A stretch of 64,000 nucleotides of DNA from Chloroflexota bacterium. Lineage in GTDB: Bacteria > Chloroflexota > Anaerolineae > Anaerolineales > UBA11579. The first letter of the stretch is position 1, and each line of letters begins with the position of its first letter. The notes beneath the pieces were generated by a model, which had not been told where the DNA came from, ran no database searches, and saw nothing but the letters and a program-made list of their open reading frames with translations. Shown here piece by piece: positions 5,519 to 48,336 of the stretch. Location: NCBI GenBank assembly GCA_019456165.1, contig VRUJ01000013.1:1-64000 (forward strand), given 5' to 3'. The position numbers and the translations under genes were made by a program.

Positions 5519-7765
5519 TTAATTACCAGTTCGGTCTTTTTTGAGCATTTTGATAAAAACATCGACAACTTTAGGGTCAAAATATTTTCCAGATTCCTCC
5601 CGCATGTGCTCAAAAACCTCTTTTTCCTCCCATCGTTTGCGGTAAGGCCGGTCTGAATTCAATGCGTCCCATACATCAACAATTGCAAAGATTCGAGCAG
5701 CGAGGGGAATCTTCTCTCCTTTCAAGCCCCGGGGGTATCCCCCGCCATCATAATGTTCATGATGACAATATGGAATGTCTAATGCTGGAAGTAAGTACGC
5801 GATTTTGTATAGCATTTCGTAAGCAAAAACTGGATGTCGACGCATTAATTCCCATTCATCCTCGGAAAGTGGCCCTTTTTTACGCAGAATAGTGTCAGGA
5901 ATCCCCATCTTTCCAATATCATGCAGTAAGGCGCCTCTCCTCATGTGCACCAATTCTCCCGGTGGTACCTGCATTTCTTTTGCCAATCGCAGCGTGATCG
6001 TTGTCACCCGCTGAGTGTGGCCTTCGGTGGCATTATCACGCAGGTCAAGCGCTCGTACCCAACCCTCCAACGTTTCTATATATGCTATTTCCATATCTAA
6101 CTTTGCGCGTTGCAAACTATCAAATAATTCCGCATTGTGTATCGCGATAGCAGCCTGCCCTGCAAGAGTTTCTAAGAAACCGGTCCATTCTGGATCAATG
6201 TCAAGTGTTGAGCGGTTAAAAACTTCGAGAACTCCGACTATTTCTCCCTTTGCAATTAAAGGTATACCATAATATTCAACGAAACCTTCTTCTGGTGTAA
6301 CATATCCAATGACATCATCTAATTCGATCTCAAGCATGTCTGGAATATGAACAGTTCGCCGTTCGTAAGCGGCTTGCCCGGCAAAACCCTCTCCCAACTG
6401 GTACTGCTTTTCTGAGATATTTTTGCTGTGTCTAAATCCTTTTTCCGCGGTCAAATTCAGGGTATTTAAACTATCGATAATAAAGATACAAGCCGCATCA
6501 ATTGTTAATTGACTTGTTACCTGATCAAGCAAAAGGTTGAGGATAAGCCGTAAGTCTAAACTGCCTGTGATCGCCTGGTCTATTTTATGCAACGCGTCCA
6601 GACGGCGTAGCTGGAGACGAACCTTTTCATCTGTTTTCACCTGATCTGTGACATTTACGATATCCCCAACCATGAATTGAGGTTCACCTTTAGAATCTCT
6701 GGACAATACCACGTTCAAATCAACCCAAATAATATCTCCGCTCTTATGAATTATCCTGGAGCTCATTCTAAATGATTGCACCTCCCCATTGAACAATTGG
6801 TTAACATTTTTTTGGCTTTCATCTAAGTCATCAGGATGGGTTAAATCCATCCAGGTAATATTATAAAGTTCATCCGCAGAGTATCCACACATCACACAAA
6901 AAGACTGGTTAGTTTGGATAAAACGACCACTTGGTTCAGCTAATACCCTACCAATACCAGCATAGTCGAAGGCATTCCTGAACTTTTCTTCTGAATCGCG
7001 CAGTCTCTCCTCTGCTTTTTTGCGCTCGGTGTTGTCAAAAGCGGTGCCATGTGTACCTATAATATTATCATTTTCATCATAGATTGGTTTAGCATTGAAA
7101 ATCAGATCAATCGTTTCACCATCTTTTGAAATATGTGTGGTCTCATAGCCTTTTACCTGACCCCCGGCTAAGTGACGTGCAAATTCTTTGAGATCCCTTT
7201 CTGCAGCTTCTTCTGTTTGGAAATCATTGAAAGGTTTTCCAAGCATCTGCTCAATTAAATATCCATGGGTTCCTTCCCAGGCAGGATTCAGATAAATAAT
7301 ACGCCCTTCTGCGTCGGCACGCCAGATGAGGTCTTGAGACGTTTCAACCAAACCGCTGTACAAATCTTCAGACTCGCGCAAAGCAACTTGGTCCACCTGC
7401 TTTTCAACCGCTCTGCGAATAGTTAACATCAATTCATCCATGTTATAAGGCTTCAGTACGTAGCTGTAAGCCCCCAAATTGACCGCCTCAATGGCTGAGG
7501 TTTGGGTAGAATGGCCGGTAATTACGATGCACTCTGTCCAGGGGGAAATTCCCTTGATTTCCTTCATTAAATCCAGACCAGACATCTCCCCAAGTTTGAG
7601 ATCAAGCAATGCCACTACTGGGGGGGTTTTGGTCACAGATTTCAGAGCTGAGTTCACACTTGCAGCAGTTACTGGAGTATATTCAAGCGTTTTCAGGATA
7701 TCTGTCAACGTTTTCCGAATATTTTGGTCATCATCCACAATCAGGATTCGGGGCTTCTTATCCAT
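5519..7765 (-). CDS. Response regulator with PAS-PAS-GAF and HD-GYP output (c-di-GMP phosphodiesterase)
   Basis: A 748-residue protein: receiver domain (about 1-125, phospho-acceptor D55 in LLDLKLGEMSG), two PAS domains (about 135-255 and 265-385), GAF (about 400-545) and a C-terminal HD-GYP domain (about 565-740). Metal and GYP motifs are intact: HTQRV, LLHDIGKMGIPD, HHEHYDGGGYPRGLKGEKIPLAARIFAIVDVWDAL. In the family, HD-GYP domains hydrolyse c-di-GMP to pGpG or GMP. It is the last gene of a run after a histidine kinase and a double-receiver protein, 19 bases downstream of the latter, so it is probably the output of that phosphorelay. The PAS and GAF parts add a second, unidentified input. 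Confidence 0.92.
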   Translation of the reverse strand: MDKKPRILIVDDDQNIRKTLTDILKTLEYTPVTAASVNSALKSVTKTPPVVALLDLKLGEMSGLDLMKEIKGISPWTECIVITGHSTQTSAIEAVNLGAYSYVLKPYNMDELMLTIRRAVEKQVDQVALRESEDLYSGLVETSQDLIWRADAEGRIIYLNPAWEGTHGYLIEQMLGKPFNDFQTEEAAERDLKEFARHLAGGQVKGYETTHISKDGETIDLIFNAKPIYDENDNIIGTHGTAFDNTERKKAEERLRDSEEKFRNAFDYAGIGRVLAEPSGRFIQTNQSFCVMCGYSADELYNITWMDLTHPDDLDESQKNVNQLFNGEVQSFRMSSRIIHKSGDIIWVDLNVVLSRDSKGEPQFMVGDIVNVTDQVKTDEKVRLQLRRLDALHKIDQAITGSLDLRLILNLLLDQVTSQLTIDAACIFIIDSLNTLNLTAEKGFRHSKNISEKQYQLGEGFAGQAAYERRTVHIPDMLEIELDDVIGYVTPEEGFVEYYGIPLIAKGEIVGVLEVFNRSTLDIDPEWTGFLETLAGQAAIAIHNAELFDSLQRAKLDMEIAYIETLEGWVRALDLRDNATEGHTQRVTTITLRLAKEMQVPPGELVHMRRGALLHDIGKMGIPDTILRKKGPLSEDEWELMRRHPVFAYEMLYKIAYLLPALDIPYCHHEHYDGGGYPRGLKGEKIPLAARIFAIVDVWDALNSDRPYRKRWEEKEVFEHMREESGKYFDPKVVDVFIKMLKKDRTGN

Positions 7766-39638: not shown

Positions 39639-40118
39639 TCATCTGTATTCAGGATATCCTTTTCCGTCCCAACGTTCGTGGTGAGAGAATGCCGCGGGGT
39701 TGGAATCTTTAACAAACGCCATTGGCGCCATAATTTGTCTGCCGATGTTAACGTGCTCTTTAATTTGTGCGTATTCTGCATCTGTAAGCGCCCCGGGTTT
39801 ATTTAAAACAGCATCCGGGATGCCAATTTTACCTATGTCGTGCATCCGTCCAGCGATATCTAATATTTTTAATTCGTTGGTTGAAAAACCTAGCTTTGCG
39901 GCAATTTGGAGTGAATAGAGTGTTACTCGTTCAGTATGTCCGCGGGTATATTCATCTTTCGCCTCTATGGCCCTAACTGCCGCGGAAATTGTGTCCTCAA
40001 AGTGTTTTTGCATCTGTGTATGTAGTTTCCGAAGATCGTGGGCGTACGCCAAGGCTTGTTTATGGCTGAGGTCCTTCAGTTTTGCATTCTCATTGTCTGG
40101 ATTTGGATCTTGCATCAT
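39639..40118 (-). pseudogene. HD-GYP phosphodiesterase, 3' truncated
   Basis: A 159-residue fragment holding the first part of an HD-GYP domain: RGHTERVTLYSLQIAAKLG, RMHDIGKIGIPDAVLNKPG and FSHHERWDGKGYPE. It then reaches a TGA after GYPEYR, exactly in the GYP motif. The remainder (IPLGARIFAVADVYDAL-type helix region) is absent from all frames of the 55 bases that follow. The metal-binding residues of the HD part are there but the domain cannot fold completely, so it is most likely inactive. Confidence 0.8.
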
Positions 40119-40764: not shown

Positions 40765-42267
40765 CTATTGAGTAACTGCAAGCAATTCATTGACATTTTC
40801 CTCAACTTTTTGGGCATAATCATCCAAATCTGCTTGAATCCACACCTCAAACGTGGTGCCTTGTCCAACTTTACTCTCGACGGAAATTTTCCCACCCATT
40901 TCTTCTATTAGCGACTTTACGATATACAACCCAACACCACTGCCAGGAATTTCAGCAATGGTGACATTTTTTGCTCGATAAAATCGCCTAAACAAATCCG
41001 AAAGAGCTTCATCAGGAATGCCAAGTCCCTCATCTCGGATTAGCACACTAACGCCCGCGTCTTTTTCCAATACTTCTATAATGATATTCCCATTTTCAGG
41101 TGAAAATTTCACGGCGTTGTTCAGCAAGTTGATAAACACTTGTTGAAGCCCATGAGTATCCGCTAAGATATTCGGGATATATGGAGGATCTTCAAAATTA
41201 ATCGTCACCCCTTTTTTCTTTGCAATCGGTTTAACTGCCATTATTGAATCATCAATTAATGGTTTTAACTTCAATGAGGCCATATTTAGAACCAACATAT
41301 TGCTTTCTAATCTTCCGGCTATTAGGAATCTATCAATCAGTATTCTCTGTCGATTTAATTCACTGGCAAGAATTTTCCAATAATCTTCCAACTCTTCTTC
41401 GCTTCCACCCTCCCTGATCAAATCTGTCATCAAAATGGATGTGGTCACCGGAGTGCGCAGTTCATGAGAGGCCCGATTGATAAAATCGGACTTCATTTGC
41501 TCGAGACGCACTTTATCGCTAACATCTCGTATGATGACAATAACCTCTTTATTGCCGCTTATATCCAATCTCGCTTCGTAAGTTCTGGGATCATCTTCTA
41601 GTTGGTATTCAAAAAAGTGTAAATTTCTACTGATGAGTGTTTTCTCAACATTCTCAAGAATTTGATCCGCTATATTCTCAGGCATCACATCATGAACAAA
41701 TCGATTTATTACGGATTCCCGCGGCAAAAATAGTGGGTGGCTTTCATGGGCAATATAATCCAGAAATTTTCCGGTATGAGTGATTCGACAGATCAAGTCT
41801 GGTATGGCATCCACAATTGCTTTATTCCGGGCTTCACTCTGTCGCAACGCCACTTCTGCTCGCTTCCGTCTAGTGATGTCACGCACAATATTCTGGATAA
41901 GTACGGGTTTTCCATCAGGGTTTTGCACCAATGTTGTACTTACTTCAACTGGTAGTGTTGAGCCATCTTTTCTCCGGTAATTACGTTCATAGATTGGTAA
42001 AATCCCTCCAGAACTGTCTGTAAGCTGAGTTCGATTATTCCCATCATCAAGGGCAACCACTTGCTGGATGGTCATACCGACAAGGTCTTCTAATTCATAA
42101 CCCAACATATCAGCAGCCTGCTGATTCACTTTTACAAAAACAAAATCCAGGCTGGCAATAAAAACCGCATCGTTTGTTTGCTCAAACAAAGCGCGATATA
42201 AGGCTTCATTTTCAAACATTTCTTGATAAGCTGACTCTTTTAGAAGAGTGTTCAATTGAAGTTCCAT
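40765..42267 (-). CDS. Cytoplasmic PAS-PAS sensor histidine kinase
   Basis: A 500-residue kinase with no membrane helix. PAS 1 (about 22-140, NDAVFIASLDFVFVKVNQQAADMLGY), PAS 2 (about 145-255), HisKA with H box FINRASHELRTPVTTSILMTD (about 265) and HATPase_c with QVFINLLNNAVKFSPENGN, RDEGLGIPDEAL and GSGVGLYIVKSLIEEMGGKI. It starts 22 bases after the end of the reading frame of the interrupted receiver-kinase, so both are one operon. The PAS ligand is unknown. Confidence 0.92.
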   Translation of the reverse strand: MELQLNTLLKESAYQEMFENEALYRALFEQTNDAVFIASLDFVFVKVNQQAADMLGYELEDLVGMTIQQVVALDDGNNRTQLTDSSGGILPIYERNYRRKDGSTLPVEVSTTLVQNPDGKPVLIQNIVRDITRRKRAEVALRQSEARNKAIVDAIPDLICRITHTGKFLDYIAHESHPLFLPRESVINRFVHDVMPENIADQILENVEKTLISRNLHFFEYQLEDDPRTYEARLDISGNKEVIVIIRDVSDKVRLEQMKSDFINRASHELRTPVTTSILMTDLIREGGSEEELEDYWKILASELNRQRILIDRFLIAGRLESNMLVLNMASLKLKPLIDDSIMAVKPIAKKKGVTINFEDPPYIPNILADTHGLQQVFINLLNNAVKFSPENGNIIIEVLEKDAGVSVLIRDEGLGIPDEALSDLFRRFYRAKNVTIAEIPGSGVGLYIVKSLIEEMGGKISVESKVGQGTTFEVWIQADLDDYAQKVEENVNELLAVTQ

Positions 42268-42289: not shown

Positions 42290-43468
42290 CTATCCTTCAG
42301 GGAATGTTTCTTGAGCTTCCCAATCGGAAGTCCCTGAAGGAAGCATCATATTTATATGGGTACCTTTATTTGATTCTCCTATTGCTACATCTCCTCCTAT
42401 GGAACGCGCCATTGCCCTGGCGATGGTTAGCCCCAAACCTAAACCACCATACTCGCGAGTATCTCCTTGACTAATTTGATAATAGCGCTCAAATACTTTC
42501 TCACGTTAGCCAGTTGGAATTCCAGGACCCTCATCTTCTATTGATAAAACACAACCTCCATCACCTTGTGAAGTCAATTGAATTTTCACCTTCCCATAAT
42601 CCGGACTGAATTTTAGAGCATTATCCACTAAATGAATCGCGGCTTTCTTAAACTCGAGCCGAGGAGCATAAATTTCGCCCTGGTTTGAGATGGTTACTTT
42701 TACATCCAGGTTTTTCTCTTGATAAATACTCAATTGTTTATCTATTGCTTTAGAAAAATCGACATTCAAATCAATTGTTTGGCGCAAAGTGTTTAGAGAA
42801 CCCTGATCTAAATTTGTGAGGAAAATCAGGTCTTCAACTAAAAAGTGTAAATGCCTTGAGTTGGTTAAGGCTAGGTCAAGAAAATTGTTTTTATCTTCCG
42901 GATTCTCGTAATTTGCCAACATTCCTAGTTCTAAAGCCCCCAGAACTTTAGCTAAAGGAGTTCTAAGTTCGTGGTGGATATTCTGTAATATTTCTCGCCT
43001 TAATAACTCGAACTTCTCTTCTGCTTTTTCCCAGGTCTCTGTTCTTCCCAGATCCTTTCCAATTTCACTACGGCGAAGCACTGATTCGACCCGAGCAACC
43101 AATTCTTGGCGGTCGAATGGTTTGGTGATGTAATCATCCGCTCCGGATTTAATCCCCATCAATTTGTCGTCAAGATCGGTGCGCGCAGTGAGAAAAATAA
43201 AGGGTATGTTAATAGTTTGAGGATCTTGACTCAATCTTTGACGCAATTCGAAGCCATCCGGAGCTGGCATCATGACATCACAAACAATAATATCTGGTTG
43301 AGCTTCTTGCGCGAGAGATAATCCATCTGCCCCATTTCTCGCGGTTACTACTTCGTAACCAGCACGTTTCATAACGGCGCTTAGTCCAAAGAGTAAAGAT
43401 TCTTCATCATCGATTAACAATACCGTGGCAGGCTGGATATTCGTTATCGCTGTCATATTTTTCTCCAT
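42290..43468 (-). pseudogene. Receiver-histidine kinase interrupted by one in-frame TAA
   Basis: The N-terminal frame (43468-42506, 320 residues) encodes a receiver (about 12-125, VLLIDDEES, IIVCDVMMPAPDG) and a HisKA/HATPase core (ILQNIHHELRTPLAKVLGAL, KAAIHLVDNALKFSPDYG, IEDEGPGIPTG). A TAA at 42506-42508 then interrupts it. The same frame continues without shift for 71 codons (REKVFERYYQISQGDT, then YGGLGLGLTIARAMARSIGGDVAIG) to a TAG at 42290. The continuation carries the G2 box and the end of the ATP-binding fold, so the premature stop alone disables the kinase. The receiver could still work. Readthrough is conceivable but unsupported. Confidence 0.85.
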
Positions 43469-43580: not shown

Positions 43581-43973
43581 TTAATCCGTCGCGACAACCC
43601 TTAGTTGGGAAATATGACTTGCTGCATGTTGGCTATTTTGAGAAAAATCGCATTTCCAGTTCATTCCAGATAAATGGTTGCAATTCTCCCAAGTTAGCCC
43701 TTGATCAAGTGTTATGGATACGTATTCAGCTGTATTTGATCCATTTTCTGAAGTGACAGTAACTTCAATACTTGCCAATTTATTTGGATCCTGCGGAAGA
43801 AGGACATAAGATAAATTGGAAATGTTGTATCCGATTATCTGATTGGCTTCATCTAATCTCGCCTCTCCAGGCTTTATGTCTGTAGATGCATACCCCGAGG
43901 TAGCAGAGGTAAATGCTACAAAAACTATGAAGAGCATGAAAACTAATGTTTGGGTTTTATATTGAGCTGTCAT
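43581..43973 (-). CDS. Small secreted protein behind tandem c-di-GMP riboswitches
   Basis: About 130 residues from ATG 43973 (MTAQYKTQTLVFMLFIVFVAFTS), which has AAAAGGA eight bases upstream and starts a standard signal peptide cleaved near GYAS-TD; the frame is open to an ATG at 44003 that would place ten residues before it. The mature part, about 95 residues, is Asn/Ser rich (VTVTSENGSNTAEYVSITLDQGLTWENCNHLSGMNWKCDFSQ) with two Cys that may form a disulfide. The EYVSITLDQGLTW segment faintly recalls beta-sandwich adhesin or BNR-like repeats. I know no family. Its leader carries three c-di-GMP-I riboswitches, so expression should follow c-di-GMP level. Confidence 0.72.
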   Translation of the reverse strand: MTAQYKTQTLVFMLFIVFVAFTSATSGYASTDIKPGEARLDEANQIIGYNISNLSYVLLPQDPNKLASIEVTVTSENGSNTAEYVSITLDQGLTWENCNHLSGMNWKCDFSQNSQHAASHISQLRVVATD

Positions 43974-44053
43974 CTTGCACATCCTTTTTGGATAATGTGT
44001 CAAAAACGACAGGGACTTCTCGCCCGCTGGGGTGGTTGTTTCAGTTACTATGC

Positions 44054-44143
44054 TTTCGGCGGCTTGGCAATCTTAGGCACCTGTTGGTGCCCTTAGACCC
44101 ATGGCTTTGCGTCCCTGTCTTTCGGCAGGTTTGCCTTTATCGT
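44054..44143 (-). promoter_or_regulatory. Cyclic di-GMP-I (GEMM) riboswitch, copy 1 (gene-proximal)
   Basis: On the minus strand the aptamer has GGCAAACC, a GAAA tetraloop hairpin (CCGAAAGACAG), GGACGCAAAGCC, GGTCTAAGGGCACC-AACA-GGTGCC and TAAGATTGCCAAGCCGCC, all hallmarks of class I. It ends about 80 nt before the start codon of the secreted protein. With no clear terminator between it and the gene, control of translation is possible. Confidence 0.88.
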
Positions 44144-44218
44144 GACTAAATTTGGTCTGATAAAAAAATTTGAGATTGAACTGCTTGGTTCTATTACCCC
44201 TCTTGCTCCGAAATTACT

Positions 44219-44308
44219 TTCGGCGGCCTGGCTATCTTAGGCACCTGTTGGTGCCCTTAGACCCACAGCTTTGCGTCCTTGGCTTTCGCCAAGTTTGCCT
44301 TTATCGTG
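44219..44308 (-). promoter_or_regulatory. Cyclic di-GMP-I (GEMM) riboswitch, copy 2 (middle)
   Basis: Same architecture as its two neighbours: GGCAAACTTGGCGAAAGCCAAGG (hairpin with GAAA loop), ACGCAAAGC, the TCTAAGGGCACC-AACA-GGTGCC arm, tetraloop receptor TAAG and closing ATAGCCAGGCCGCCG. It differs from copy 1 in the first hairpin and from copy 3 at a few sites. It lies downstream of the intrinsic terminator that follows copy 3. A T7 run after it (minus strand) is preceded only by weak pairing. Confidence 0.9.
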
Positions 44309-44331
44309 TATTCGGTTATTAAGGTGCTAAC

Positions 44332-44357
44332 AAAAAGGCCCGGCATTTTGCCAGGCC
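44332..44357 (-). terminator. Intrinsic terminator between riboswitch copies 3 and 2
   Basis: Minus strand GGCCTGGCA-AAA-TGCCGGGCC, nine positions with one mismatch, followed by TTTTT. It begins about 20 nt after aptamer copy 3 and so is the natural expression platform of that copy: ligand binding would decide between termination here and readthrough to copies 2 and 1 and the secreted-protein gene. Confidence 0.85.
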
Positions 44358-44377
44358 AAAAATTCATGTTGTAGATC

Positions 44378-44466
44378 TTCGGCGGCCTGGCGATCCTAGG
44401 CACCTGTTGGTGCCCTTAAACCCAAAGCTTTGCGTCCTTGGCTTTCGCCAAGTTTGCCTTTATCGG
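44378..44466 (-). promoter_or_regulatory. Cyclic di-GMP-I (GEMM) riboswitch, copy 3 (gene-distal)
   Basis: First aptamer of the leader on the minus strand: GGCAAACTTGGCGAAAGCCAAGGACGCAAAGC core, the TTTAAGGGCACC-AACA-GGTGCC arm and TAGGATCGCCAGGCCGCCG. An intrinsic terminator follows at 44332-44357. Three nearly identical aptamers in series would give a steeper or logic-gated response. Confidence 0.9.
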
Positions 44467-44870
44467 AAATTCATGTTAATTTACTACTATTACAGAAACA
44501 TGTTACCACGAAAACTTACCTGCGCTCTTAACATTCTCGCAAGTTTAAAAAATCCTCTTGAATGAATAGGAACAATTTTTTCAGAACGTAGTTGTAAGTA
44601 GTTGATACCAATAAGGCATTTGTCACTGATTTATTAGGACATTTAACCCTATTTGAAATTAAATTTATTGCGTAATCTTATATTATATGTCCTGATTTTA
44701 AGCTGAATTTCAAGTATAATTTCTCTGTCTTCGATTAAAACTCTAAGATATTCCAGAGAACTTCCAAACCAACTTAGAGGGAACAAGATTGAAATGAAAT
44801 GTTAATCTATTTGAATAACAAATCAATATACAATAATATTTAATGATTTCCTATTTAGGACAAATGGCGT
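44467..44870. other. Intergenic region upstream of the riboswitch leader
   Basis: About 400 AT-rich bases. They should contain the promoter of the riboswitch transcript on the minus strand. At 44489-44510 the string ATTACAGAAACATGTTACCACG resembles the terminal sequence of the insertion-sequence remnants at 44871 and 58296. No gene is seen. Confidence 0.4.
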
Positions 44871-45105: not shown

Positions 45106-48100
45106 ATGTTAGAAAAAGTAAAGCTGTTTCTAGCACCAAAAATATTCGAAGATGGGGAAAAAACGCGCGTCGCGAGACTGCTAAATATCCTTTTGTTAGC
45201 CACAATCCCATCGTTGGCATTGTTTATTATTATATCCGTACTTTTTAGCCCCACTATGGCGCAGCAGTGGCCTATCATTGGTTTCTTATTCTTATTAGCC
45301 GTGGGGGTATACGGATTGATGCGCAAAGGCCGCGTTAAGCTTGCCAGCTTTTCATTCGCTACCGGGTTATGGGCAGCGCTGACCTTCGCTGCTATTACTT
45401 CTGGAGGTGTTCAATCTCCAGGTTATATAAGCCTTATTAACGCGGTATTTGTTGCCGGCCTGCTCCTGGGTACGCGGGTTGGAATCACCTTCGCGGCAGT
45501 CAGCATTTTTACAGGATTAGCGCTGATCTATGCAGAGCTGAACGGTCTATTACCTCCACCTTGGATTGATCACACCCTAATTTCATTTTGGCTCCCCCAA
45601 GGGTTCTCCTTCATCATGGCAGCAATGATACTCTATTTGGCAACCAGTAGTATTAAACAAGCCTTGAATCGTGCCCAGTTGGAAATCGTCGAGCGTAAGC
45701 AAGCAGAAGGTGAGCTGCGTGAAGCATACCAAAATATTGATAACTTATTTAACGCTATCGGTCATCAAACGCTGATTCTGGATCCAGAATTTCACATAAG
45801 ATCAGCCAACGAAGCTGTCCTTGAGAAAATTGGTATGTCGCATGAAGAAATCCGAGGAAAAAAGTGTTATGAGATCTATCATGAGGCCAACGAACCTCCT
45901 GTAGGCTGCCCATGTAATAAAATAAAATTGACGGACCAAATCGAAACTGCTGAAATGGAAATAGAAGCTTTTGATGAAACTTACTTGGTCTCATGCACAC
46001 CTATACACGATGAGGCTGGTCAACTCGCACAAGTTATTCATATAGCGACCGATATCACCGAGCTTAAACACACCCACGATGAACTACAGCATTTGAAAAA
46101 ATTCAACGAAAGTATCATTCACAACATGCTGGAAGGGATTATGGTTATGGATGTTGAAGGAATTATTACCTTCATCAACCCGGCTTTATTAGTTTTACTG
46201 GGATACTCACCAGAGGAGATAATTGGCCAGCATTGGAAGAATATCGTGCCGCAGGATCAACACGAAATTGCTGATGGAGCAGAGGAGCGGCGTGCCAGAG
46301 GAGAGATAGGTCACTATGAGTTAATCCTCACTAACAAAAAGGGGATTAGTTTTCCTGTGCTTGTTGGTAGCGGGATAATGTATGATAAAGAAGAATTCGT
46401 GGGCAGCATTGCTGTCTTTACTGATATTAGCGAGAGTAAATTGGCTGAAGAAGCCTTGCGGGAAAGCGAGCTGCGTTACCGTGCGGTCGTTGAAGACCAA
46501 ACAGAGATGATAATTCGCTACCTGCCTGATAACACCCTCACTTTCGTGAATGAAGCTTTCTGTACCCATACCGGGAAACAACGCGAGGAATTAATTGCTC
46601 AGAGCTGGGTACCACTGGTATCCAAAGATAATAGGGAAATGGTTCTAAAGCATATCGCTTCTCTGGATCAGGAAACACCGTTTGTCACCTTCGAACAGAG
46701 GAGTTTTAGTCGTAATAAAGAATTGCAGTGGGAGCAGTGGACCAACCGGGTGTTATTTGATGAGAATGACCAAATCATAGAGTATCAAGGTATTGGTAGA
46801 GTAATTACCAAACGAAAACAAACAGAAGAGGCTTTACAAAGACATACGCACGACCTTGGGGAACGAGTAAAAGAACTAAACTGCCTGTATGGTATTTCCA
46901 AGTTGATTGAAAAAGAGGGGTTATCGATGGCGGAGATCCTAGAAGAGGCGGTTGAAATTATCCCTCCCGGCTGGCATTATCCGGAGATTACTTGTGCGCG
47001 TATTGAAGTTAGAGGCAATGAATACAAAACAACTAATTATAAGGAAACAAAGTGGAAACAAGAGGCTGATATTGTTTTGAATACGGAAAAAATCGGGGCT
47101 GTTGAAGTCAATTATTTAGAAGAAATGCCTGAATTGGATGAAGGACCTTTCCTCAAAGAGGAGAGAAATCTGATTAATGTAATTGCAGAACGGTTGGGAG
47201 ATATGTTGGCACGGTACAAGCAGGATGATCAGATCCAGTGCCAAATCCAACGGCTGGGCGCATTGCGCGAAATTGATAGAGCTATTAGCGGCAGTCTCGA
47301 CTTACGGATCACCCTAAATGTGGTTCTCGACCAGGTTGTCTCTCAATTAAATTTGGATGCAGCAGCTGTGTTATTGGTGGACTCACTGCATAGCCTGAAG
47401 TATACAGCAGGAAAAGGGTTTCGGTCTTTTGATGAAATTAGCTCTGCGCGCCTCCGAGTGGGGGAGAGTTATGCTGGCCGGGCAGCCTTGGAACGGCGGA
47501 CATTTAGCTTATCTGATATACAAGAACTTGATGTGCCTTCAGAATTCAACACCTTTTTACAGACAGAAGGTTTTGTGCACTATCGTGCCGTCCCTTTGAT
47601 CTCAAAAGGAGAGGTCCTAGGTGTTCTCGAAATATATAACCGCACTGCCGTTGATACTAGCGCTGGGTGGATGGAGTTCCTAGAAACTTTAACCGGGCAG
47701 GCCGCGATTGCGATTAACAACGCCACACTCTTTGATAGTTTACAGTCTGCAAAAACTGGGTTAGAGGTGGCTTATGACGCTACCCTGGAAGGCTGGGTGC
47801 GTGCCCTGGATATGCGCGATAAGGAAACCGAAGGCCATACCAGACGGGTGACTGAAGTAACCCTACGATTAGCCGCCCAAATGGGTGTACCCTCGAATAA
47901 GTTGATCCACTACTCGCGCGGCGCGCTGCTGCATGACATCGGTAAGATGACAGTTGGCGATGAAATTTTACATAAGCCGGGCCCTTTGAGTGACGAAGAA
48001 TGGGAGATAATGCGTAAGCATCCTGAATATGCGCGTGATTTCTTGGCAGGCATCGAGTATCTGGAACCAGCATTAGAGATCCCCTACAGCCATCACGAAA

Positions 48101-48336
48101 AGTGGGACGGGACTGGATATCCTCAAGGTTTGGAAGGTGAGCAAATCCCATTGGCGGCTCGCATCTTCGCGATAGTTGATGTATGGGATGCGCTAAGCAA
48201 CGACCGGCCCTATCGCAAAGCATGGTCTAAAAAGAAAGTACACAAGCATTTACGGGACAATTCTGGCTCACACTTTGATCCGCAAGTGGTTGAGGCGTTT
48301 TCGAAGACGCTCGAGAATGAAAGAGAGTTAATGTAG
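45106..48336 (+). CDS. Membrane multi-PAS/GAF HD-GYP c-di-GMP phosphodiesterase
   Basis: A 1076-residue sensor-effector. N-terminal membrane domain with about six helices (25-190), a coil (ALNRAQLEIVERKQAEGELREAYQNIDNL), three PAS domains (about 205-325, 330-455, 460-580), a GAF-like region (about 595-700), a GAF domain (about 725-870) and HD-GYP (about 890-1076). The output motifs are complete: HTRRVTEVTLRLAAQMG, LLHDIGKMTVGDEILHKPG and HHEKWDGTGYPQGLEGEQIPLAARIFAIVDVWDAL. The first PAS carries a Cys cluster (KKCYEIYHEANEPPVGCPC), possibly redox or metal sensing. The GAF/HD-GYP half is closely similar to the protein at 5519-7765. It has a strong ribosome site (GGGAGG) and likely degrades c-di-GMP read by the nearby riboswitches. 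Confidence 0.92.
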   Translation: MLEKVKLFLAPKIFEDGEKTRVARLLNILLLATIPSLALFIIISVLFSPTMAQQWPIIGFLFLLAVGVYGLMRKGRVKLASFSFATGLWAALTFAAITSGGVQSPGYISLINAVFVAGLLLGTRVGITFAAVSIFTGLALIYAELNGLLPPPWIDHTLISFWLPQGFSFIMAAMILYLATSSIKQALNRAQLEIVERKQAEGELREAYQNIDNLFNAIGHQTLILDPEFHIRSANEAVLEKIGMSHEEIRGKKCYEIYHEANEPPVGCPCNKIKLTDQIETAEMEIEAFDETYLVSCTPIHDEAGQLAQVIHIATDITELKHTHDELQHLKKFNESIIHNMLEGIMVMDVEGIITFINPALLVLLGYSPEEIIGQHWKNIVPQDQHEIADGAEERRARGEIGHYELILTNKKGISFPVLVGSGIMYDKEEFVGSIAVFTDISESKLAEEALRESELRYRAVVEDQTEMIIRYLPDNTLTFVNEAFCTHTGKQREELIAQSWVPLVSKDNREMVLKHIASLDQETPFVTFEQRSFSRNKELQWEQWTNRVLFDENDQIIEYQGIGRVITKRKQTEEALQRHTHDLGERVKELNCLYGISKLIEKEGLSMAEILEEAVEIIPPGWHYPEITCARIEVRGNEYKTTNYKETKWKQEADIVLNTEKIGAVEVNYLEEMPELDEGPFLKEERNLINVIAERLGDMLARYKQDDQIQCQIQRLGALREIDRAISGSLDLRITLNVVLDQVVSQLNLDAAAVLLVDSLHSLKYTAGKGFRSFDEISSARLRVGESYAGRAALERRTFSLSDIQELDVPSEFNTFLQTEGFVHYRAVPLISKGEVLGVLEIYNRTAVDTSAGWMEFLETLTGQAAIAINNATLFDSLQSAKTGLEVAYDATLEGWVRALDMRDKETEGHTRRVTEVTLRLAAQMGVPSNKLIHYSRGALLHDIGKMTVGDEILHKPGPLSDEEWEIMRKHPEYARDFLAGIEYLEPALEIPYSHHEKWDGTGYPQGLEGEQIPLAARIFAIVDVWDALSNDRPYRKAWSKKKVHKHLRDNSGSHFDPQVVEAFSKTLENERELM

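Follow-up and report, generated by a model that had tools for sequence, protein, structure and literature searches.

The minus strand of a 64,000-nucleotide stretch of contig VRUJ01000013.1 (assembly GCA_019456165.1, Chloroflexota, Anaerolineales; hereafter the window) carries three riboswitch aptamers in series ahead of the gene of a small exported protein. The locus raises the question of what three such sensors achieve within one leader, in which direction they act, and on which genes. We number the copies in transcription order, whereas a preliminary description of this DNA had partly numbered them by ascending coordinate:

44377-44467, minus strand: aptamer copy 1, the first transcribed (RF01051 77.1 bits; RF03167 67.3 bits)
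44218-44308, minus strand: aptamer copy 2 (RF01051 83.4 bits; RF03167 71.7 bits)
44054-44144, minus strand: aptamer copy 3, the last before the gene (RF01051 78.9 bits; RF03167 72.0 bits)

In Infernal searches all three copies exceed the Rfam gathering cut-offs of RF01051 (c-di-GMP-I; 35) and RF03167 (c-di-GMP-I-GGC; 59), and the RF01051 match spans model positions 1-87 of 87 in each, so that the three tandem c-di-GMP-I aptamers of the preliminary description are full-length. Its coordinates were right to within 1-2 bases. They are the sole Rfam matches to these families in the 3.8-Mb draft genome; the window contains a single set of three cores with such spacing, and none of 100 shuffles contains one. 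The aptamers recur with periods of 159 and 164, in agreement with a direct repeat of 95 nt spaced by 164 and 159. Between the copies, the same strand has no ORF of at least 60 aa. The choice between the labels c-di-GMP-I and c-di-GMP-I-GGC is ambiguous for these copies, as both labels fit, and does not separate the two families because, in relatives, copies of one and the same array split between both families; the two are grouped together as c-di-GMP sensors (PMC12452182).

As to the ligand, the position that discriminates between c-di-GMP (favoured by G) and c-AMP-GMP (favoured by A; PMC9481103) is G in all three copies, and the GEMM-Ib riboswitch for c-AMP-GMP was rejected on this ground. 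The C pairing the second guanine is likewise present in 3/3. The genome has 11 GGDEF and 10 HD_5 (HD-GYP) domain matches, and therefore possesses c-di-GMP enzymes; hence, we infer that the ligand in the host organism is c-di-GMP. We take the selecting G and the pairing C to be the equivalents of Vc2 G20 and C92. A viral origin of the array was considered and rejected, the triple core pattern being found in no viral contig.

The genes that follow the array on the same strand are:

43581-43973, minus strand: exported protein of 130 aa, with orthologs behind riboswitch arrays in genomes G004 and G023
42506-43468, minus strand: receiver-HisKA-HATPase hybrid (receiver-kinase), with an in-frame TAA beyond which the same frame runs on to 42290
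40765-42267, minus strand: PAS histidine kinase, the probable third gene of the unit, in the same order in L040
40246-40674, minus strand: FHA-domain protein, unit membership uncertain
39639-40118, minus strand: C-terminally truncated HD-GYP protein (PF13487 match 4-116 of 170), unit membership uncertain

The exported protein, whose gene starts at 43973, begins with a signal-like helix and, as had been claimed, belongs to no known family, with zero Pfam or NCBIfam matches above cut-off. The structure prediction that had been proposed for it yielded a poor AlphaFold model (pLDDT 51.6; a helix, then strands), from which we claim no fold; a Foldseek search with the model gave no match at E <= 0.001, and a PDB profile search nothing below E 0.3. 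Its relatives behind arrays are encoded at L040 in G004 (34% identity) and at L048 in G023 (33%), the latter being the array, also labelled L114, of Anaerolineales bacterium DeMMO6_45 (JAGVCA010000045.1), of the same GTDB family. Further relatives in G004, G018 and G020 lie at sites without a riboswitch match. At L040 a riboswitch pair is followed by the exported protein, the receiver-kinase and the PAS kinase, precisely the order of the window, and at L048 a triple array is followed by the exported protein and then a receiver. Given this order conserved in a second genus, and no terminator-like site in the scanned same-strand region between the exported-protein and receiver-kinase genes, we infer that the exported protein, the receiver-kinase and the PAS kinase probably belong to one operon, which would thus have three genes or more. 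Thus, the earlier view that the array controls one small secreted protein holds insofar as the array precedes that gene, but is probably too narrow, as the kinase genes are likely to be included.

Two of these genes show irregularities of their own. The TAA of the receiver-kinase (42506-42508, minus strand) sits in the HATPase domain, with conserved sequence continuing to 42290, and the G004 ortholog is uninterrupted at 390 aa; the alternatives are a sequencing error, decay or read-through. Viral contigs searched with the receiver-kinase gave no match. The truncated HD-GYP protein ends just past the HHExxDGxGYP motif, without the last third of the domain. It is a third HD-GYP at the end of the array's gene run, additional to the two intact ones that the preliminary description had correctly placed in the window (45106-48336, plus strand; 5519-7765, minus strand). 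Control of the nearby HD-GYP gene by the array was rejected, that gene being on the opposite strand and in the wrong direction.

As to how the leader might act upon this unit, the relevant elements at copy 1 are:

44332-44357, minus strand: intrinsic terminator of copy 1, GGCCUGGC AAAAU GCCGGGCC UUUUU, -17.6 kcal/mol, with the hairpin at 44357-44337 and the U-tract behind it
44384-44391, minus strand: GCCAGGCC, the predicted antiterminator strand in aptamer 1 (P3 3' strand and junction), complementarity 8/8

The 5' arm of the terminator, GGCCUGGC, is the exact complement of GCCAGGCC in aptamer 1. When folding is followed as the transcript grows, the probability of the antiterminator is 0.98 until the 3' arm of the terminator is complete; with aptamer 1 enforced (P2 and P3 imposed), the terminator has a probability of 1.00. 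The nearest-neighbour energies used here take no account of tertiary contacts or of the ligand, and they make the aptamer fold costly. Without ligand, GCCAGGCC would pair with GGCCUGGC and prevent the terminator, and with ligand bound GCCAGGCC would be kept in P3, allowing the terminator to form and transcription to end. Copy 1 is hence predicted, because its terminator arm is complementary to an aptamer strand, to be an OFF switch working by ligand-dependent termination. An 8-nt complement is by itself not rare for comparable GC-rich sequence (173 of 1000 shuffles), and the weight of this one comes from its position and conservation, not from the match alone. The same arm-to-aptamer complementarity is found after the first copies in G001, G004 (two loci), G023 and three g8 genomes, representing four other genera of the family, and is matched there by 0-7 of 200 shuffles; in the g8 genomes it is also found after the second copy. 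By contrast, among the last copies of multi-copy arrays in the family set none beats shuffles at 5% for such complementarity. No covariation can be counted for the copy-1 pairing because the aptamer strand is nearly invariant, and what supports the design across the family is its repeated occurrence.

The preliminary description had seen a clear terminator after the first copy only, and the energies bear this out: against -17.6 kcal/mol, the most stable hairpins that precede a U-run reach -4.8 after copy 2 (before UUUUUUU) and -8.2 after copy 3 (before GUUUUUG). Copy 3 thus has no strong terminator, and between it and the gene lie the elements of a different putative platform:

44111-44119, minus strand: GACAGGGAC in aptamer 3 (P2 3' strand and core GAC), the perfect complement of 44008-44016
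44008-44016, minus strand: GUCCCUGUC, a putative switching strand between aptamer 3 and the start codon, which can pair with aptamer 3 or with the start region
43982-43986, minus strand: Shine-Dalgarno AAGGA
43967-43973, minus strand: AUGACAG, the start codon and the sequestered GACAG

A part of GUCCCUGUC, CUGUC (44008-44012), is complementary to the GACAG that overlaps the start codon. Compared with shuffled platforms, the duplex of GUCCCUGUC with the P2/core strand has p = 0.002, and that with the start region p = 0.012. The probability of the start-codon pairing is 0.98 with aptamer 3 enforced and 0.00 with the alternative helix. The probability that the AUG is unpaired falls from 0.56 in the free state, a value that varies from 0.56 to 0.15 with the coding sequence included (0.15-0.25 with longer 3' sequence), to 0.01 with aptamer 3 folded, and such a drop is seen in 1 of 300 shuffled platforms; the Shine-Dalgarno is paired in both folding states. 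Accordingly modelled, GUCCCUGUC would pair with GACAGGGAC of aptamer 3 when no ligand is present, and ligand binding would free it, so that CUGUC pairs with GACAG over the start codon and blocks translation. We therefore predict copy 3 to be a translational OFF switch. When nine last copies are pooled, three of them non-independent g8 copies, Fisher's method gives p = 0.0003 for the start region and 0.0007 for the P2 strand. In the ensemble calculation the last copy shows clear two-state behaviour in the window and at L047 only, and this is not reproduced at L034, L039, L040, L044, L046 and L048.

Copy 2 stands apart from both, with a single stretch to be considered:

44145-44217, minus strand: spacer after copy 2, in which a CCGAAAGUAAUUUCGG hairpin overlaps P1 of copy 2 and a run of 7 U is preceded by a weak hairpin

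This spacer holds neither a strong terminator nor an arm complementary to its aptamer beyond chance, and we find no convincing output platform that copy 2 could call its own; the middle copy of the G023 array is likewise without a terminator. Copy 2 is predicted to bind ligand, and may be a relic or may tune the folding of the leader. The earlier suggestion that copies lacking a terminator use another platform or tune the response is therefore likely to be right as regards another platform, with copy 2 lacking a convincing one.

Taken together, these computational predictions lead us to favour, by a modest degree, a reading in which the triple array, at high c-di-GMP, lowers expression of the exported protein and probably also of the signalling genes downstream, first at transcription and then at translation. 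The proposal can be widened to a homotypic array that double-locks its operon across genera, with termination at copy 1, start-codon control at the last copy, and a platform-less middle copy acting through its neighbours; in this broader form we hold it only tentatively. The array might instead be purely transcriptional and pseudo-cooperative, with the weak terminators of copies 2 and 3 sufficing, so that the response would be sharpened by three decisions in series, as in the Bc3-5 array. Tandem c-di-GMP-I arrays are usually so read (PMC9481103, PMC4759541), hairpins do precede the U-runs of both copies, and strong terminators follow each copy at L117 and copies 1-2 at L108. Nevertheless, neither copy 2 nor copy 3 has a hairpin anywhere near as stable as that of copy 1, and the arms of these two hairpins are complementary to their own aptamers no more than expected by chance, which makes this account improbable in our estimation.

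We judge about equally improbable that copy 1 is the sole regulator, copies 2 and 3 having arisen recently by duplication and having no output. Identity is 86-92% among the window's copies and only 69-80% with those of G023, so that the array is recent or homogenised, and the want of a platform at copy 2 and of a terminator at the middle copy of G023 point the same way. Conversely, the ligand-binding core is intact in 3/3 aptamers, with scores far above cut-off, the platform of copy 3 bears a non-random switching strand, and two genera have triple arrays ahead of an ortholog of the exported protein. An array of the opposite sign, in which c-di-GMP raises expression and the modelled antiterminator pairing goes unused in vivo, appears less likely still. 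An increase with c-di-GMP is common among exported adhesin-like proteins, which would speak for such an ON switch. The Bc3-5 array, too, has been described as ON (PMC4759541); however, in its Bc4 member the aptamer strand forms a part of the terminator, whereas in the window it complements the 5' arm of the terminator, giving the opposite sign, and copy 3 also predicts OFF.

The frequency of such arrays bears on how unusual the locus is. Matches to c-di-GMP-I riboswitches occur in 10 of 24 genomes of the family, many of them in tandem, and in 213 of the 400 genomes sampled from the order, where the best 20 loci by score comprise 9 doublets and 0 triplets. When 84,980 genomes were scanned for three cores spaced 153-183 nt from one another, 31 contigs were found; Rfam supports arrays of three or four copies in six of them (L090, with 2 of 3 copies weak; L094; L096, four; L108; L114; L117, four), and the other 25 are without an Rfam-supported triple. 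As core and spacing were fixed in the scan, the count of arrays is a lower bound. In all six, the next same-strand gene codes for a protein with a signal-peptide-like start. At L117:1312-1853, four c-di-GMP-I riboswitches of Acetobacterium wieringae CSMB_175 precede a subtilase-like gene, and at L096:2101-2437 four nearly abutting copies are found in an uncultured Clostridia bacterium. A published survey counted 347 doublets and 12 triplets of tandem c-di-GMP-I (PMC9481103). The claim that three in a row are much rarer than pairs thus agrees with the numbers, but triples were already known, from these 12 and from Bc3-5 (PMC4759541). The window's array is thus a new example of a known triple arrangement, with an unusual mix of predicted controls.

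Related genomes offer further variations on c-di-GMP-I modules. Other tandem arrays in the family precede secreted sortase-like proteins (L034, L036, L039, L044, L046, L047), which have an LPxTG-like motif right behind the signal peptide; two that were tested match PF04203 (E 6e-5 and 4e-6), and one matches NF053836 sortase_YLP at 1.8e-31, yet below its cut-off. At L044, L046 and L047 the order is a riboswitch pair, a CheY-like receiver gene, a third aptamer and the sortase-like gene, which therefore has its own sensor within the gene run. A further, distinct RNA, absent from the window's genome and about 260 nt long (402 nt in L124), consists of two or three directly abutting modules at L122-L126, with a degenerate first module additionally in some, and of one module only at L121. 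It starts with CACUCCGAAAA and, where the 3' end is present, ends with CCGAAGAGUG, the two ends pairing. Its start lies 7-11 nt downstream of the end of a sigma70-like promoter (9-11 of 12, spacer 17-18), a U-rich stretch or terminator follows the RNA at L122, L123 and L125, and no clear gene start is found immediately downstream. This may be a free-standing RNA that binds c-di-GMP.

With this array, a triple c-di-GMP sensor joins the tandem c-di-GMP-I leaders of Chloroflexota, which prove to be common, and its output would link c-di-GMP to an unstudied small exported protein and the sensor kinases behind it. Among its counterparts, the G023 array shares the three aptamers (periods 170-172), a terminator only after copy 1, the related exported protein and a receiver gene, and differs in the sequence of its copies and in a receiver without the kinase part. 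The tandem c-di-GMP-I arrays of the survey share riboswitch class and arrangement with the window, but are described as pseudo-cooperative, mixed platforms being given there for SAM-II pairs and not for c-di-GMP-I, with platforms, by the authors' own account, not comprehensively checked (PMC9481103). Bc3-5 of Bacillus thuringiensis, a tested triple-tandem c-di-GMP-I array with three predicted transcriptional ON switches (PMC4759541), likewise has three complete riboswitches in series in one 5' leader; terminators are predicted on all three of its members, in contrast to the one strong terminator, predicted OFF direction and predicted translational platform of the last copy in the window, and gene, phylum and sequence also differ. 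Bc1 is a c-di-GMP-I riboswitch with dual regulation of transcription and translation, and thus also a leader working at two levels, but it has a single aptamer with two terminators, and its regulation is incoherent and barely responds to c-di-GMP in vivo (PMC11218506). In the SAM-II/SAM-V bi-mechanism tandem, the first switch terminates transcription and the second controls translation (PMC9481103). As predicted, the window array would resemble it in having termination first and translation last, with one ligand and one sign; it differs in ligand and aptamers, and in having three aptamers of one class rather than two of two classes. The first copy of the window has a predicted terminator with an aptamer-complementary arm, and its last copy a predicted start-codon sequestration with uneven support among relatives; given that control of translation at the last copy is a prediction, the array is a candidate for this type. 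It would work in the manner of the SAM-II/SAM-V type and, if the two-level reading is true, it would be a c-di-GMP counterpart of that arrangement.
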